DNA from: a virus
Direction: 5' to 3' (one strand)
DNA: 47,366 nucleotides
Virus record (IMG/VR): IMGVR_UViG_3300043429_000117
Span: 1 to 47,366 of that record
The translations under genes and the position numbers were made by a program. Within the stretch, counting starts at the first letter, position 1. The number at the start of each line of letters is the position of its first letter. Of the stretch, positions 4,267 to 12,481 are shown in pieces. Below the pieces are notes generated by a model. The model saw only the letters and a list, made by a program, of their open reading frames with translations, had not been told where the DNA came from and searched no databases.

Positions 4267-4725
4267 ATGGGTGTTGAGAAAAACTTATCAGATGCTTTAG
4301 GCATCGAACACTTGCCTGTGACTAAAGAAGAAGTCAAACAGGAAGTCATTGAGTATGTTCCCGCTGATAGCAAAGACGATCAAGATGAAGATTATGCCCT
4401 TGTTCGTAATACCCTCCGAAACCTAATCGAGAAGGGTAATGATGCACTGGAAGATATCTCACATATTGCCAAGCAAAACGAATCCGCCCGTGGGTTCGAG
4501 GTCGTGGCCAATCTAATCAAGACTGTAGGCGAAACGTCAAAAGACCTGTATAACCTACAGAAGATGAAACGTGATCTTAAAGAGCCTAATCCTGAATCCG
4601 ATCCACGCAAGAAAAGCGCCGATGGTAATATCAACGTGGAGCAGGCCGTATTCGTGGGTTCTACAGCCGAACTATTAGCGGCTATTAAGAACAAGAAAGA
4701 GCAAGATGGCAAGGACGCCGTTTAG
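4267..4725 (+). CDS. 16: small terminase subunit gp16
   Basis: The small terminase recognises DNA and regulates the large subunit during packaging. The 152-residue product (T4 gp16 is 164) has the family layout: an acidic N-terminal part, a central helical region with YALVRNTLRNLIEKGNDALEDI and KQNESARGFEVVANLIKT, and a charged C-terminal tail. The run from RGFEVV to the LYNLQKMKRDL helix is typical of T4-like small terminases. It overlaps gene 17 by 20 bases, the arrangement also seen in T4. Confidence 0.88.
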   Translation: MGVEKNLSDALGIEHLPVTKEEVKQEVIEYVPADSKDDQDEDYALVRNTLRNLIEKGNDALEDISHIAKQNESARGFEVVANLIKTVGETSKDLYNLQKMKRDLKEPNPESDPRKKSADGNINVEQAVFVGSTAELLAAIKNKKEQDGKDAV

Positions 4726-6388
4726 TTATCAGAATAACCCTAACCTGCCTAATGAGCAGTATAGACATGCTTTTACCCAAGCGGAACTTGATGAATACCT
4801 CAAGTGCGCTGACGATCCTGTTTACTTTTCCAAGAAGTATATTAAGATTATTAACGTTGACCGTGGTCTTATGCCATTTGAAATGTGGGACTTTCAGGAG
4901 CGTATGCTTCAATCGTTCCATGATAATCGTTTCTCTATTTGTAAGCTACCTCGACAGGTTGGTAAGTCTACCACATCGGTAGCATATATTCTACATCAAG
5001 TATTGTTTAACGAAAACTTCGTGGTTGCTATTCTTGCTAACCGTGCTCCTACCGCTCGTGAATTGCTACAAAAGCTAAAGCTGGCTTTTGAATATCTGCC
5101 TATGTTCTTAAAGCAAGGCATCAAGGAGTGGAACAAGGGTTCTATCTATCTTGCTAATGGTTCGAGAGTTCTGGCAGACTCCACCTCAGGTTCATCTGTC
5201 CGTGGTTTCTCGTTCAACCTAATCTTTCTGGACGAGTTTGCGTTCGTTCCCAACAATATCGCCGAGGAGTTCTTTAACTCTACATATCCTACCATTTCAT
5301 CTGGTCAAAGTTCAAAGGTCGTTATAGTTTCTACACCAAACGGTATGAACTTATTCTATAAGATGTGGACTAAGGCGGTTGAAAAGACCAGCACCTATGT
5401 GCCTATTGAGATCCACTGGTCGATGGTGCCTGGTCGTGACGCCAAGTGGGCAGAAGAAACCATTCGAAACACCAGCCAGAGACAGTTCGACCAAGAGTTT
5501 GGTTGTGAGTTCTTAGGTTCATCTAACACCCTCATTAATGGTGCCAAACTGGCGGCGATGCATTGGAAAGAACCAATCGCCAAAAACGAGTGTATGGATA
5601 TCTTTGAGCATCCAGTTCCAAAGCACACATATGTCCTATGTGCTGACGTTGCCGAGGGTCAAGGTCTCGATTATTCCACCTTCTCTATCTTCGATGTTAG
5701 CGAGATTCCTTACCGACAGGTAGCTAAATATAGAAACAACGAAATTAGCCCTATGTTGCTGCCAGCGGTCATCTATGCTGCCGCTACCCGTTATAACGAG
5801 GCTTTCGTTCTAATCGAAATCAACTCTATCGGTCTACAGGTAGCAGATATCTTACACTATGAGTTGAACTATGAGAACCTGCTAAAATTCCAGCAAAAGG
5901 GTAAGCAGGGCACCCAGTGGTCAGGAGGCTTCGCTGCCGGTAAGAACAAGCTGGCCTTTGGTCTAAAGATCACAGCCCAGTCCAAGATGATTGGTTGTGC
6001 TAACCTCAAGACGCTGGTTGAAAGCGACAAGCTAATTCTAAATGATGAGGATACCATCACCGAGTTATTCTCATTCTCCGCAGACAAAAAGACCTTCAAG
6101 GCGGAAGAAGGTTCTAATGACGATTTGGCCATGACACTGGTTCACTTTGGCTGGTTGACCGCCCAAAAGCTATTCAAAGAGACCGTTTCTAACGATATTC
6201 GCTACGTTCTACAGAAAGAGTTGTCATATCTGGAAGATGTAGAAAATGTGCCTTTTGGATTCATCGATAACGGAATTGATAGTCCACATGACACTGAAAT
6301 TGATGCCGCTGGTGATAGATGGGTCCGTGAACGAGAACAGCTATATCCATTCGATGATCTAAATTATAAGTGGGATACTCGGCTATAG
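4706..6388 (+). CDS. 17: large terminase subunit gp17 (packaging ATPase and nuclease)
   Basis: This is the motor that pumps DNA into the prohead and cuts concatemers. In the 560-residue product, the ATPase domain has Walker A PRQVGKST at about 82-89, Walker B LIFLDE at 172-177 with the catalytic Glu, and the coupling motif STPNG at 209-213. The RNase H-like nuclease domain shows three acidic centres: Asp314 in ADVAEG, Glu371 in LIEINS, and Asp472/473 in NDDLAM. They match the T4 gp17 triad in order and spacing. T4 gp17 is 610 residues. Appears intact, with no intron or inserted homing endonuclease. Confidence 0.96.
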   Translation: MARTPFSYQNNPNLPNEQYRHAFTQAELDEYLKCADDPVYFSKKYIKIINVDRGLMPFEMWDFQERMLQSFHDNRFSICKLPRQVGKSTTSVAYILHQVLFNENFVVAILANRAPTARELLQKLKLAFEYLPMFLKQGIKEWNKGSIYLANGSRVLADSTSGSSVRGFSFNLIFLDEFAFVPNNIAEEFFNSTYPTISSGQSSKVVIVSTPNGMNLFYKMWTKAVEKTSTYVPIEIHWSMVPGRDAKWAEETIRNTSQRQFDQEFGCEFLGSSNTLINGAKLAAMHWKEPIAKNECMDIFEHPVPKHTYVLCADVAEGQGLDYSTFSIFDVSEIPYRQVAKYRNNEISPMLLPAVIYAAATRYNEAFVLIEINSIGLQVADILHYELNYENLLKFQQKGKQGTQWSGGFAAGKNKLAFGLKITAQSKMIGCANLKTLVESDKLILNDEDTITELFSFSADKKTFKAEEGSNDDLAMTLVHFGWLTAQKLFKETVSNDIRYVLQKELSYLEDVENVPFGFIDNGIDSPHDTEIDAAGDRWVREREQLYPFDDLNYKWDTRL

Positions 6389-6463: not shown

Positions 6464-8209
6464 ATGGCATATCAACTTTCCCCAGGCGTGGCTTGGTCAG
6501 AAATTGACCTTACGACCGTAGTTCCCGCCGTTTCGACTACAGAAGGGGCGTTTGCCGGAAACTTTGATTGGGGTCCTATCGACCAGGTTGTGACAATTGC
6601 TAATGAAGTAGAACTGGTTCGCTGGTTCGGTAAGCCTTCAGATAATACAGCAGTTTCATTCTTCACCGCTGCTAACTTCTTAGCATATGGTGATAACCTA
6701 CGAGTAGTTCGTTCAGCAAATACAGCCGGAGCTAAAAACGCTACATCTGGTAACACAGCAGCTATTATTAAGAACCGTGATGATTGGGACCTAAACTGGG
6801 ACGTATTCAGCACAAACAGCCCAACCTATGGTATGTTTGCTGGTCGTTACGCAGGTACATTAGGTAACGGTATTCGTGTTTGCGCCTTCGCTAACGCAGG
6901 TATCTCTACATCTCACGCAGACTGGACCCATTGGGAACAGGCTTCACAGTTCGATGGTCCTCCAGGTACTTCAAAGTATGTTGAGGATCGTGGTGGTGCA
7001 AACGACGAAATGCACATTATCGTTCTTGATACCTTTGGTCAGTTCACCGGTGGTATCGCTAACGCCGTCCTTGAAAAGTATTCAAACGTTTCTAAGGCCG
7101 TTGACGCTAAGAACGATGACGGTTCATCAAACTACTGGGTCAATGTTCTCGCTGATAATTCAGCTTACATTTGGCCAATCAATAACGCTATTGCCAATAA
7201 CACTGTTCCTGCCGTTCAGACAGCAACATGGGGCAATACTGCACAGGGAACATCATTCACACAGGGTAATGCTTCATTCAACATTACACTTGCTGGCGGT
7301 GTTCTATCTGCACCAACTGACGGTAATCTACAGAACTCATACGTTCTATTCTCAGATACCGACGCATATGATACCTCACTAATCATGACTGGTGGCGCTT
7401 CAAATACCGTATGTAAGTATGTTATCGATAACATTGCCGACCCTGTTGGCACATATGGTCGTGGCGACGTAGTTGTATTCGTTTCACCACAATACAGTGA
7501 CGTTGTTAACCAGCCTGGTTCAGAGGTTAATAATGCTATTGCAACCAGAGATTTCTATGGTTCAACCTCATATGCCTTCATGGATTCTGGTTGGAAGAAG
7601 CAGTTCGATAAGTATAACAATGTTTATCGTATGATTCCTCTAAACGGCGACATGGCTGGTCTATGTGCCCGTACCGATCAGACAAGAGACCCATGGTTCT
7701 CACCAGCAGGTCTAAATCGTGGTCAGGTCAAGAATGTCACCAAGCTATCATGGATGCCAACAAAGGCAGACAGAGATAATCTATATAAGAACGGCATTAA
7801 CCCTGTTGTAACATTCAAGGGTGAAGGTACAGTTCTATATGGTGATAAGACACTACTTGCTAAGCCATCAGCCTTCGACCGTATTAACGTTCGTCGTCTG
7901 TTCATTGTTCTTGAGAAGTCAATTGCAAAGGCTGCCAAGTATTCACTATTCGAGTTCAACGATGAGTTCACCAGAGCCCAGTTCGTTGCTCTTGTTGAGC
8001 CATTCCTACGTGATGTTAAAGGCCGTCGTGGTATCTATGACTTCAAGGTAGTTTGTGATGAAACAAACAATACCCAGCAGGTCATTGATAGCAACCAATT
8101 CGTCGGGGACATCTACATTAAGCCAGCACGTTCAATCAACTTCATCCAGTTGAACTTCGTTGCTGTCAGAACCGGTGTTGCCTTCTCCGAAATTGTTGGC
8201 AAGTTCTAA
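6464..8209 (+). CDS. 18: contractile tail sheath protein gp18
   Basis: The sheath subunit polymerises around the tail tube and contracts during infection. The 581-residue protein starts with the family N-terminus LSPGVAWSEIDLT (the PGV-E-D pattern) and VSTTEGAFAG, and ends with the conserved sheath C-terminal domain, including a phenylalanine-rich LRDVKGRRGIYDF segment and KPARSINFIQLNF. T4 gp18 is 659 residues; the shortfall is probably in the outer variable domains. A strong AAAGGAG site is 8 bases before the ATG. Serine is mostly encoded by TCA, as in the other highly expressed structural genes here. Confidence 0.95.
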   Translation: MAYQLSPGVAWSEIDLTTVVPAVSTTEGAFAGNFDWGPIDQVVTIANEVELVRWFGKPSDNTAVSFFTAANFLAYGDNLRVVRSANTAGAKNATSGNTAAIIKNRDDWDLNWDVFSTNSPTYGMFAGRYAGTLGNGIRVCAFANAGISTSHADWTHWEQASQFDGPPGTSKYVEDRGGANDEMHIIVLDTFGQFTGGIANAVLEKYSNVSKAVDAKNDDGSSNYWVNVLADNSAYIWPINNAIANNTVPAVQTATWGNTAQGTSFTQGNASFNITLAGGVLSAPTDGNLQNSYVLFSDTDAYDTSLIMTGGASNTVCKYVIDNIADPVGTYGRGDVVVFVSPQYSDVVNQPGSEVNNAIATRDFYGSTSYAFMDSGWKKQFDKYNNVYRMIPLNGDMAGLCARTDQTRDPWFSPAGLNRGQVKNVTKLSWMPTKADRDNLYKNGINPVVTFKGEGTVLYGDKTLLAKPSAFDRINVRRLFIVLEKSIAKAAKYSLFEFNDEFTRAQFVALVEPFLRDVKGRRGIYDFKVVCDETNNTQQVIDSNQFVGDIYIKPARSINFIQLNFVAVRTGVAFSEIVGKF

Positions 8210-8236: not shown

Positions 8237-8794
8237 ATGGCTTTTAATGTCAATCAATTCAGAGCAACCCTGGTAAACGACGGCGCCCGCCCAAGTTTAT
8301 TCGAGGTTGTTATGAGCCTACCACCAATTCTTGGTGCAGCGCCATTGACAAACGACATCATCTTCCGTGTTAGAGCAACATCTCTACCAGGTGATGGCGT
8401 TTCTCAGATCGTTGTTCCATACTTTGGTCGTGAAGTTAAGATTGCAGGTACTCGTACCTTCCCAGACTGGTCATTCACAATCATCAATGATGAAAACTTT
8501 GTGGCTCGTCGCAATCTTGAGACATGGCTAAACGCTATTAACGGACACGTTAGTAACCTACGTAGCCCTGCCGCTCTATCTGCCGCTTCATATCAGGCCG
8601 ATGCTCTTATCACCCAGTTTGGTAAGGCCGGTAACGTCATTAAGATGTATAAGATGGTTGGTTGTTTCCCAACTGACGTTGCTGCTATCGACCTTGATTG
8701 GGCATCAGGTGACCAGATCGAAGAATTTGGTGTGACCCTCGCCTACCAGTGGTGGGAATCACTCGACGGTTCTACCGACGTTTCTGGTGCTTAA
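8237..8794 (+). CDS. 19: tail tube protein gp19
   Basis: This forms the stacked hexamer rings of the inner tail tube. The 185-residue product (T4 gp19 is 163) has the family N-terminus FNVNQFRATL, then RPSLFEV, a central VRATSLPGDGVSQIVVPYFGREVKIAGTR core, and TFTIINDE-like strand FTIINDENFVARRNLETWL. It directly follows the sheath gene, as in T4. A strong hairpin terminator lies 16 bases after the stop. Confidence 0.93.
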   Translation: MAFNVNQFRATLVNDGARPSLFEVVMSLPPILGAAPLTNDIIFRVRATSLPGDGVSQIVVPYFGREVKIAGTRTFPDWSFTIINDENFVARRNLETWLNAINGHVSNLRSPAALSAASYQADALITQFGKAGNVIKMYKMVGCFPTDVAAIDLDWASGDQIEEFGVTLAYQWWESLDGSTDVSGA

Positions 8795-8809: not shown

Positions 8810-8836
8810 CCATGGGGCTTCGGCCCCATGGTTTTC
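8810..8836 (+). terminator. rho-independent terminator after gene 19
   Basis: A perfect 9-bp stem, CCATGGGGC and GCCCCATGG, closes a TTCG tetraloop and is followed by TTTTC. It sits between the tube gene and the portal gene. No late box is visible in the short stretch between it and the portal start, so portal mRNA may depend on read-through. Confidence 0.85.
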
Positions 8837-8845
8837 ATCATGTTT

Positions 8846-8862
8846 AAGGAGTAGGGACCATT
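8846..8862 (+). promoter_or_regulatory. ribosome binding site and AUU start of the portal gene
   Basis: AAGGAG at 8846-8851 is 8 bases before ATT at 8860-8862, ideal spacing. There is no ATG, GTG or TTG in the portal frame between the stop at 8845 and the clearly portal-coding sequence downstream; the first in-frame ATG is at 9061, inside a conserved helix. AUU is a known rare start (E. coli infC). A sequencing error turning ATG into ATT is the alternative. Confidence 0.7.
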
Positions 8863-10722
8863 CGCTTTTTTGGCTTTCAAATCGGCACTGACGATCAGGA
8901 TAAAGTTGATCAGTTAGGCAGACCACTACAGAAAACATTTGCCATACCACAATCTGATGACGGTGCCGTTACGGTTGCCGGCGCAGGCTATTATGGTACA
9001 TATGTTGATCTTGATGGTACATTCCGCAACGAGACACAGCTTATCACCAAGTATCGTGAAATGGCGCTTCAACCAGAAATGGAAATTGCCATTGATGAAA
9101 TCGTAAACGAGGCCATCGTAGTTGAGGATTCTGGTACCTCGGTTGAAATCAACCTTGATGATGTTAAAGCTCCCGCCCAGATCAAACGTAAGATCGAAGA
9201 AGAATTTAACTACATTCTTAAACTCCTAAACTTTGGTAATATGGGTCATGATATCTTCCGTCGTTACTATATCGATGGTAGATTGTATTATCACCTTGTT
9301 ATTGATGAAACCAATCCTGCTCTTGGTCTACAAGAATTAAAGTATATCGACCCTCGCCGTATTCGTAAGATCCGTGAAATCCAAAAGATGCGTGATCCTA
9401 ATACAGGTGTAGAACTAATCAAAAAGACAATTGAATATTACCTATACAACGAAAGAGGAATGATTGGTGCTGGCACTAATCTTGGCGCAAAGATCGCAGT
9501 TGACTCTATCGTAAATGTTAACTCTGGCATCCTGGATCCTAAGCAGACCATGGTGCTTTCATATCTCCACAAAGCAATCAAGCCATTCAACAATCTAAGA
9601 ATGGTCGAAGATGCTACCGTTATCTATCGTCTATCTCGTGCGCCAGAGCGCCGTGTATTCTATATCGACGTTGGTAACATGCCTACAGTTAAAGCGGAAC
9701 AGTATGTCCGTGATATCATGGTCAAGTATCGTAACAAGTTGGTTTACGATTCCAATACTGGTGAAATCAAGGATGATCGTAAGCATCTATCGATGTTGGA
9801 AGACTTTTGGCTACCACGCCGTGAAGGTTCCAAAGGTACTGAAATCTCCACATTGGAAGGTGCACGTAACCTTGGTGAACTGGAAGATGTTAAGTATTTC
9901 CAGAGTAAGCTATACAAGTCACTAAACGTTCCAGTATCACGTATGGAACCAACTCAAGGCTTCTCACTCGGCCGCACCACAGAAATCAATCGTGACGAAA
10001 TCAAGTTCAATAAGTTCGTTACCCGTCTCCGTAATAAGTTCTCCACTCTATTCGATGATCTTCTAAGAGTCCAGTTGGTTCTTAAAAGAGTTTGTACCGA
10101 AGAAGAATGGAAAGAGTTCAAAGAAGATGTTTGGTACGACTACAAGAAAGATAACAACTTTGATGAAATCAAGGATGCCGAACTACTAAACATCCGTCTT
10201 GATACATTACAGAAGGTTGATCCTTTCGTCGGCAAGTATTATTCAGTTATGTGGGTTCGTAAGAATATCCTTCAACAGACTGACGATGACATTGAGGAAA
10301 TCAATGCTCAAATGCAGGAAGAAGGGCAGATACAAGCACAGGCCGATCAGGCTAATGCCGAAGCCATGGCTGTTCAACAGCAACAGGACATGCAGAACCA
10401 GATTGCGTTTGATGCTCAACAACAAATTGCACAAGCCCAAGTTAGCAAAGAAGTTGACAAGATTACTGGCCCAGATCAAGGACCATCTAAGTCAGAAACT
10501 CAAAGTCGTGATCATGAATCCAAGATGATGGATAAGAAGATCGCTCTTGAGAAAATGAAGCAAAAGAAATCTGCACCACCTGCCAAGAAAAAGACTGTAG
10601 CCGAACAAGCTAAAGACTTAGACCTAATCTACATTGGCAGCGGCAAGTATGCTAATAAAAGTGGTGTAGTAACACACTTAAATGAAAATGGTATTCTATT
10701 ACCTTACCTAAATAAGGATTAA
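8860..10722 (+). CDS. 20: portal vertex protein gp20, AUU start
   Basis: The portal dodecamer is the DNA entry channel and the start point of prohead assembly. From the ATT at 8860 the product is 620 residues (T4 524). The N-terminus reads RFFGFQIG, like other T4-like portals, and the region just before the first ATG (Y-G-T-Y, then LITKYREM) aligns with T4 gp20 residues before its EIVSDAIV helix, here EIVNEAIV. Later blocks match well: LKYIDPRRIRKIRE, TVIYRLSRAPERRVFYIDVGNMP, LEDFWLPRREG, and PVSRM. The C-terminal 120 residues are Gln-rich and longer than in T4. Starting at 9061 would delete a conserved segment. Confidence 0.92.
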   Translation: MRFFGFQIGTDDQDKVDQLGRPLQKTFAIPQSDDGAVTVAGAGYYGTYVDLDGTFRNETQLITKYREMALQPEMEIAIDEIVNEAIVVEDSGTSVEINLDDVKAPAQIKRKIEEEFNYILKLLNFGNMGHDIFRRYYIDGRLYYHLVIDETNPALGLQELKYIDPRRIRKIREIQKMRDPNTGVELIKKTIEYYLYNERGMIGAGTNLGAKIAVDSIVNVNSGILDPKQTMVLSYLHKAIKPFNNLRMVEDATVIYRLSRAPERRVFYIDVGNMPTVKAEQYVRDIMVKYRNKLVYDSNTGEIKDDRKHLSMLEDFWLPRREGSKGTEISTLEGARNLGELEDVKYFQSKLYKSLNVPVSRMEPTQGFSLGRTTEINRDEIKFNKFVTRLRNKFSTLFDDLLRVQLVLKRVCTEEEWKEFKEDVWYDYKKDNNFDEIKDAELLNIRLDTLQKVDPFVGKYYSVMWVRKNILQQTDDDIEEINAQMQEEGQIQAQADQANAEAMAVQQQQDMQNQIAFDAQQQIAQAQVSKEVDKITGPDQGPSKSETQSRDHESKMMDKKIALEKMKQKKSAPPAKKKTVAEQAKDLDLIYIGSGKYANKSGVVTHLNENGILLPYLNKD

Positions 10723-10726
10723 AGAT

Positions 10727-12481
10727 TTGGCAAAAGGTCTTTCAAGTGTTAAAACACTAACTGCCAAGCAAATTGCTGATAAGTGGAATCTACCACTATC
10801 TGTAGTTGCTAAGAAGATTGAAGCTGGTATCAAGGTGGAAAAAGAACACACCAAGAGTACCAGAGAAGCTAACGAGATTGCTCGTGATCATCTTGGTGAA
10901 AGACCAGACTATTATGAAAAACTCCACAAGATGGAGAAGCAGCCAATTGTCAAAGAAGAAACTATGACAAGTGGCATTGGCGGTTTAGGATTTAGAACAG
11001 GAACGCCTGCCGTAGATGATGACAACGGTTATGTTAGCACCAATGCACTTGCATATGATCCTTTCAATGGTGCTCGTTTGGACTTTATGACCAAGATACA
11101 TAACAAGCTACACAACAAGTTAGGTTTTAATAGCTATAGTCCTAAAGACACGGCTCATTCTAACAAAGAACTTGTTGAGAAGAAACTAAATGAACTTGGT
11201 GAATATGATAACAAAGGCGGAACAATAGGAGCAGAAGGCTTGACAGACGCACCACCAAAGAAAGACGTTAAAGAAGGCTGGGCATCAATCGGTCACCCAT
11301 ATGACCGCTTTGGTGATGTTAATCGTAAAGCAAAGTTTTACGGTAAGAAGCCTAAGGCAACAACCACCAAGAGCGATGAGAAGGATGACACCTACAAGGA
11401 TTCCAAGCAGGGTGGTTCTGACGTAAAGTTTGCCAAGACCGTTAAAGAAGCACAGATTGATGAGTTGGTAGCAACTGCTGTTCCACCATCAATTCAACCA
11501 ACACAGACACAAATTCAGAGACAAGCTCCACAGCAAGCCAGAGGTATTCAGGCCGGTCAGACCAAGATTAATGTTCGTAGCATTGCTCCAAGAACCACAA
11601 CCTCTGGTACAGGTTCAGCAAGACTATCACAGGGCGGAACAACTGGTGGTTATAACACCATGAAGCCAACCACCACCGATGTTAAGAGAAACATCTCCAA
11701 TAGATTCAATCCTAATTTCAGTCAGCAAGCCACAGGCTCAATGAAGGCATCTTCGGTTAAGACTGGTGCATCATTCTCACAGGGCGGTAGCCAAGTTGCA
11801 CAAAAGATGGCTAAGTCATCACCAAGTCAGGTTATCTCTAAGATGTCCGATGCTGGTCGTCAGGCAGCTTCCGTTGCTTCAAAGGCAGCACCAACAGCCG
11901 CTAAGGTTGCTGGTACTATTGCCAGAGTAGCCGCTGGTCCTGCTGCTACTGCCGCTGCGGCTGTTATGTCACCAACTCCAGCTGGTGAAAAGAAGTCAGA
12001 GTTTCAGCGCCAGGCAGATGTTGCCAAGGGTGTTTCATATAAGGCACAAGGTCGTTCCATTTCAGACTATGAAAAGCAGGTACTAACACCTAAGGCTTCT
12101 GAAACACCAAAGGCTCCTAATCCAAAGGTTGATGCACCAACACCTCCATCAAGACCAGAATACTTTTCTCGTGGTCAGGCATTCGGTGCCGCTCGTGGTG
12201 AAGCTGGTGGTGGTCAAGGTAAGTTCTCATATGATAACAAAGAATACCAGACAAATGTTTCTGGTGAACCATACAAGCCATCAACACAGCTAAAACAAAC
12301 CAGTGTAAAAGAGGAAACTAAAATGGATAACAAAGAACGCATTAACGAGGCTCTTGATTGTATTCTTGAGAACAACCTTTCAGAAATGAAAGATAACCTC
12401 CTTATCGCTCTACAAGAAAAGGCCATGGAAAAGTTGGAAGAGCGTAAGAAGGAAATTGCTGCTAACTACTTTGCCGAATAA
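10727..12481 (+). CDS. prohead core-region protein with DUF5661-like N-terminus
   Basis: Starts at TTG (10727) with AAGGA 8 bases upstream; the 584-residue product lies between genes 20 and 21, where T4 has core genes 67 and 68. Residues 10-70 (LTAKQIADKWNLP, VEKEHT, ARDHLGERPDYYEKL) resemble the DUF5661 domain found in many phages. The middle 400 residues are basic, rich in Ala, Ser, Thr, Gln and Lys, and probably disordered. The last 55 residues form a charged helix (RINEALDCIL to EERKKEIAANYF) typical of prohead core proteins. An INE-A tripeptide there fits a gp21 cleavage site. Role as an internal core or scaffold protein is inferred. Confidence 0.6.
   Translation: MAKGLSSVKTLTAKQIADKWNLPLSVVAKKIEAGIKVEKEHTKSTREANEIARDHLGERPDYYEKLHKMEKQPIVKEETMTSGIGGLGFRTGTPAVDDDNGYVSTNALAYDPFNGARLDFMTKIHNKLHNKLGFNSYSPKDTAHSNKELVEKKLNELGEYDNKGGTIGAEGLTDAPPKKDVKEGWASIGHPYDRFGDVNRKAKFYGKKPKATTTKSDEKDDTYKDSKQGGSDVKFAKTVKEAQIDELVATAVPPSIQPTQTQIQRQAPQQARGIQAGQTKINVRSIAPRTTTSGTGSARLSQGGTTGGYNTMKPTTTDVKRNISNRFNPNFSQQATGSMKASSVKTGASFSQGGSQVAQKMAKSSPSQVISKMSDAGRQAASVASKAAPTAAKVAGTIARVAAGPAATAAAAVMSPTPAGEKKSEFQRQADVAKGVSYKAQGRSISDYEKQVLTPKASETPKAPNPKVDAPTPPSRPEYFSRGQAFGAARGEAGGGQGKFSYDNKEYQTNVSGEPYKPSTQLKQTSVKEETKMDNKERINEALDCILENNLSEMKDNLLIALQEKAMEKLEERKKEIAANYFAE

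Follow-up and report, generated by a model that had tools for sequence, protein, structure and literature searches.

The 47,366 nt stretch analysed here (an IMG/VR virus record, referred to as the window) carries a T4-like structural cluster, and its portal gene raises the question of where translation begins. The first canonical in-frame start is the ATG at 9061, and the ORF listing gave the gene as 9061-10722 (553 aa), which is 67 residues shorter than the frame given in Table 1. The identity of the gene was not in question. In addition to the Pfam match, the phrog_213 portal profile matched the product with an E value of 5e-199, and the portal gene followed the tail sheath and tail tube genes, which is the gene order of T4-type gp20. 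The gene on its 3' side (10727-12481) starts with TTG and encodes an N-terminal DUF5661 domain.

Table 1. Features of the portal region in the window
Feature	Position	Strand	Details
Terminase	4706-6388		
Tail sheath, gp18-type	6464-8209		
Tail tube gene, gp19 type	8237-8794	+	phrog_45 tail tube, E 2e-52; ATG start and strong Shine-Dalgarno (SD) sequence
Terminator-like hairpin, then TTTT	8810-8831	+	Between tube and portal genes
Out-of-frame mini-ORF, ATG TTT AAG GAG TAG	8840-8854	+	Overlaps SD; leader resembles HNH 3' ends
In-frame TAA closing portal frame upstream	8845-8847	+	
SD sequence, AAGGAG	8846-8851	+	8 nt before AUU; duplex energy -8.7 kcal/mol
AUU initiation codon (ATT), probable	8860-8862	+	Same codon ATT/ATA in 14 alleles, GTG/TTG in 30 sisters
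Portal gene (gp20, T4 type), from AUU	8860-10722	+	620 codons plus stop; PF07230 Portal_T4, E 1.1e-172

A first-pass annotation had proposed that the gene starts at the ATT at 8860, citing the 8-base distance from AAGGAG and the absence of any in-frame ATG, GTG or TTG ahead of the conserved region. Both observations held. The eight spacer bases (8852-8859) were read directly, and with the in-frame TAA at 8845-8847 no canonical in-frame start is possible upstream of the conserved region. Between this TAA and the ATG at 9061, the ATT was the sole codon preceded by a textbook SD, whose pairing energy equalled that of the tube gene and was among the strongest in the window. The ATT is followed by CGC TTT TTT GGC, and codons 2-67 exhibited a protein-coding pattern: first, second and third codon positions had 5, 1 and 17 substitutions relative to the closest relative, and 6, 5 and 26 relative to locus L107. 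Position 4 of the PHROG portal profile aligned with residue 2 of the AUU-started frame. Three marks of AUU/AUA-initiated genes, namely no canonical start, a strong and normally spaced SD and a codon conserved in relatives, were present. Judged by its position, the SD spacing, its conservation and the GTG/TTG starts that sister phages have at the aligned codon, ATT 8860 is very probably the true portal start codon, and AUU would be the initiator in vivo.

Two other placements were considered, each very unlikely. A non-canonical codon might be used within the 12 nt that separate the ATT from the stop, such as GTA 8851, and L087 indeed has a GTG at this position, in frame three codons (-9) upstream of its AUU. 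It is a possible start, but it overlaps the SD, as does the GTA, and the codon is variously GTT, GTA, GTG or absent in relatives. The ATG at 9061 is the choice to be expected of gene finders; however, it would drop conserved coding region. The GTG or TTG of sister phages lies exactly at the AUU codon. A frameshift from the ATG at 8840 into the portal frame was rejected, as the frame is not constant from relative to relative and a stop lies in between. An AUG-bearing exon further upstream, set off by a group I intron, was also rejected, with no Rfam hit and no room for the intron.

The codon was then compared in related phages, a check that had been suggested with the original proposal. The portal start could be read at 309 loci recovered in scans of IMG/VR, 181 of which differed from one another over the first ~250 nt. 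For the window's subfamily, taken as loci of at least 69% identity, 44 distinct alleles were sorted by start codon, and the start fell at the same codon throughout: GTG in 26, TTG in 4, ATT in 12, ATA in 2 and ATG in none. In the same loci, gp19 started with ATG in 41/41 scored cases. Sequencing error had been put forward as the main alternative to the AUU start, a view that does not survive this comparison. The window is known from a single contig, but the same codon is found in 14 distinct alleles (the window and IMG/VR contigs) from many metagenomes and the reading frame of 620 codons is intact, leaving an error of sequencing or assembly, or a decayed gene, with negligible probability. What the earlier reading did not see is that the AUU is clade-wide, has AUA variants, appears to move horizontally and, in relatives, appears linked to an HNH endonuclease gene.

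The AUU codon itself was constant in ten AUU alleles (those without an HNH gene seen adjoining the portal; L096 among them has long upstream sequence), whereas just 4 of the 46 degenerate codons conserved in these alleles kept their third base, and the two conserved Ile codons were among those that varied at it. The codon is therefore selected for something besides coding Ile. It never turned into AUG in this sample, though AUG is one step away. The AUU/AUA-start phages are uncultured; the portals of the cultured relatives checked (Mosig, HTVC008M and C48C1) start with ATG or GTG, and a scan of bacterial and archaeal genomes returned distant portals only, with no clue to the host. An insertion suspected in the portal of L033 was really a longer, divergent C-terminal part.

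The SD differed between the two kinds of start. Pairing energies were -6.8 to -9.3 kcal/mol for AUU/AUA alleles versus -5.3 to -5.6 kcal/mol for GUG/UUG alleles, without overlap, although the rank-test p value of 6e-8 is overstated because the alleles are related. A strong SD went with AUU/AUA in 3/3 well-supported independent pairs, which are too few for significance. A GC-rich hairpin was also seen by eye at the tube/portal gap of most relatives in the window's subfamily, with its sequence differing and its pairing kept.

In T4-type virions, portal subunits are about ten times fewer than tube subunits. Expression of the portal gene could be adjusted to this need in several steps. The terminator-like hairpin would cut read-through from gp19, and the strong SD, 8 nt from the AUU, would hold 30S subunits over a codon that the initiator tRNA accepts slowly and inefficiently, so that the portal yield would be well below that of the tube protein encoded directly upstream. 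Low translation would plausibly match the stoichiometry of this 12-copy protein. In ribosome profiling of Staphylococcus aureus, AUU/AUA starts were paired with strong conserved SDs and gave ~10% of AUG expression (PMC13009471). The virion tube:portal ratio is near this S. aureus AUU:AUG ratio, a match that is suggestive only.

In three distinct alleles of the relatives (L007/L087, which is one contig, L205 and L109), an HNH homing-endonuclease-like gene was found directly 5' of the portal gene, and all three have AUU or AUA portal starts. In two scans for relatives of the HNH gene, just these three alleles had it directly before a portal. The gene encodes an HNH domain with a DNA-binding tail: HNH_3 was matched with an E value of 2e-11 in L205 and L007, and NUMOD3 was matched in the read part of L109; homing endonuclease PHROGs matched the gene as well. 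It is free-standing, sitting between gp19 and gp20 with no Rfam intron found, and from these matches its product is a putative homing endonuclease. The stop codon of the HNH gene overlaps the portal AUU/AUA, and its last codons hold the portal SD.

Further features of the HNH gene were noted. In L109:13959-14643 (also L418) it is frameshifted near the HNH motif, apparently a stage of decay. A small hairpin, which follows a second structured element, takes up the SD of the HNH gene itself (L205:4395-4500, minus strand; L007:1330-1425, plus strand), with z values of -4.5 and -3.4. The SD hairpin resembles the hairpins that sequester the ribosome-binding site in T4 homing endonuclease genes. A gene of the same HNH family was also found in L429:39-3022, ~1 kb downstream of a distant portal gene.

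The history of the start region was examined using a tree of the portal core, with the first 50 residues left out. On this tree a single clade of AUU/AUA alleles was rejected (AU test p 1.3e-4), with five changes needed, yet the leader GGAGTNRSGRCM-ATW was common to nearly all of these alleles, indicating exchange of a 5' module. The closest core relatives of both L087 (ATT) and L205 (ATA) have GTG and no HNH gene. L087 is sister to L142 (GTG) and L205 to L190 (GTG), with similar cores; the leaders of L087 and L205 are unlike those of their sisters and like each other's, apparently because of the HNH gene that lies upstream in both. Between L087 and L142, gp19 is 90% identical up to the HNH insertion, and within the portal gene identity is ~69% over the initial ~150 nt compared to ~94% for the remainder, a tract like those left by co-conversion. 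Between L205 and L190, the first ~30 nt are divergent. A gene-less allele with a flanking co-conversion tract is thus clear for L087 and short for L205. Codons 2-6 were rejected as a mark of AUU alleles, since their identity to the HNH alleles was the same for AUU and GTG alleles; the exchange signal therefore lies only in the leader and, for L087, in the first ~150 nt.

T4 phage homing endonucleases carry flanking sequence by co-conversion (PMC2988022). By the same route, entry of the HNH gene into a GUG-start phage would bring AUU/AUA with it when the neighbouring stretch of the portal gene is co-converted, the HNH gene contributing the portal SD from its 3' end with its stop overlapping the AUU/AUA. 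The strong SD with AUU/AUA at 8 nt has the look of an allele that passes horizontally between phages in association with a mobile gene, the other allele being a weaker SD with GUG/UUG. A link between the AUU/AUA module and the HNH homing gene is likely, although only three HNH-carrying alleles were found. The explanation as a whole, in which a real AUU start with a strong SD would give reduced yield and belong to a mobile allele spread by HNH co-conversion, was given a probability of roughly 75%.

It could be argued that AUU was selected solely as a tuned weak start for portal dosage and that the HNH gene is a bystander inserted into AUU phages. Such an origin falls a little short of an even chance. 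It would agree with the non-AUG portal starts in 44/44 alleles of the clade against AUG throughout in gp19, with the AUA/AUC starts of a distant lineage and with a portal need about an order of magnitude below that for tube subunits. However, AUU/AUA apparently entered two GUG lineages along with the HNH gene, so the codon change there tracks the mobile gene and not dosage.

The window allele has the module and lacks the HNH gene, and apart from a brief resemblance in the leader no HNH remnant was found in the window. The HNH-free AUU/AUA leaders matched the HNH-carrying leaders, which are HNH 3' ends, at 9-14 of the last 15 positions (except L096, at 5-6), compared to a mean of ~4 positions for GTG/TTG leaders. 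L109, with the HNH gene, and L098, without it, are identical over AAGGAGTAACGACCATT. A one-base gap brings the HNH gene tails of L205 and L109 into alignment at the DNA level, but their proteins do not align there; it is therefore the initiation signal that is conserved, not the endonuclease C-terminus.

From its resemblance to an HNH 3' end, the window leader is the scar of a lost HNH gene or else a pre-insertion allele. In the first case it would be the last ~25 nt of a lost HNH gene, a direction of change that we regard as tentative; in the alternative history the HNH gene was inserted before a pre-existing AUU module. A broader proposal, held with similar reserve, is that the HNH gene rewrites the start of its neighbour by supplying the SD and imposing AUU/AUA, spreads by co-conversion and leaves a conserved scar. 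It is even conceivable that the openness of a phage to invasion depends in part on the portal start region.

The four-codon mini-ORF that overlaps the SD (Table 1) is possibly a by-product of a homing-gene remnant, or regulatory. ATG mini-ORFs ending beside the start were present in 14/15 AUU/AUA/AUC alleles versus 8/47 GUG/UUG alleles, with 0.19 expected from shuffles. This excess would fit translation from ATG 8840 to TAG 8854 with the terminating ribosome re-initiating at the AUU, making the mini-ORF a control element. Such a role is nevertheless unlikely: the independent lineages are few because the alleles are related, the frame and length of the mini-ORF vary among alleles, its ATG has no SD, and a remnant would also account for it, with the ATG at the place of a Cys codon and its adjoining bases in the HNH gene 3' end.

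To our knowledge, well-documented AUU starts are few. T4 gene 26 has an internal AUU start; it is likewise in a T4-type virion gene, but there the AUU yields a shorter product and is not the sole start. AUU starts have been described for E. coli infC (PMC5472188) and S. aureus cvfC1, and AUA starts for S. aureus ccpN and citZ (PMC13009471). Like the portal gene, these genes and E. coli pcnB (AUU) combine AUU/AUA with a strong, well-spaced SD, are conserved and have starts that are weak compared to AUG. Unlike all of these, the portal gene is a phage virion gene with a horizontally exchanged allele, GUG/UUG alternatives and an apparent homing endonuclease link, and nothing suggests an IF3 feedback role for it. 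In Streptomyces, the GTC start of sigR sets the ratio of two products and is repressed by IF3 (PMC5472188); this start is also non-canonical, but the codon differs and the gene is a cellular regulator.

The HNH gene compares most closely with the free-standing HNH and GIY-YIG endonucleases of T-even phages (Mob and Seg; PMC2988022) and with I-TevIII-like genes, sharing the intergenic position, the SD hairpin and the co-conversion-like tract. At the N-terminus, its product resembled intron-like endonucleases of T-even phages. Unlike Mob and Seg genes, it ends in an overlap with the start of an essential gene, on which it apparently imposes a non-canonical start codon. T4 mobA and the gene 60 bypass region have been viewed as a mobile cassette. 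There too a homing endonuclease is linked to an odd translation event in the neighbouring gene (PMC3014915), although that event is a 50 nt bypass as opposed to the non-canonical initiation codon of the portal gene. From the HNH link it would seem that a selfish gene is able to reset the start codon used by its neighbour.

Here an essential structural gene has kept an AUU start across a phage clade, with a natural series of AUU, AUA, GUG and UUG alleles and matching SD strengths, so that the effect of the start codon on virion gene dosage is directly testable. Gene finders restricted to ATG, GTG and TTG would cut these portals by 67 residues.

Two other loci, L299 and L223, belong to a separate portal lineage (57-62% identity) and have AUA or AUC where their sisters have ATG-GCN, six bases upstream of the codon aligned with window position 8860. 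Both have a mini-ORF, ATG AGA GGY ACC TAA, just ahead of the AUA/AUC and no HNH gene; the endonuclease is therefore not the sole route to such starts. In L107, a 172 kb AUU-start phage, there is no HNH gene at the portal, and HNH-like relatives of the same endonuclease were found elsewhere in it, at G001:C1:39559-39795 and 56489-56665.
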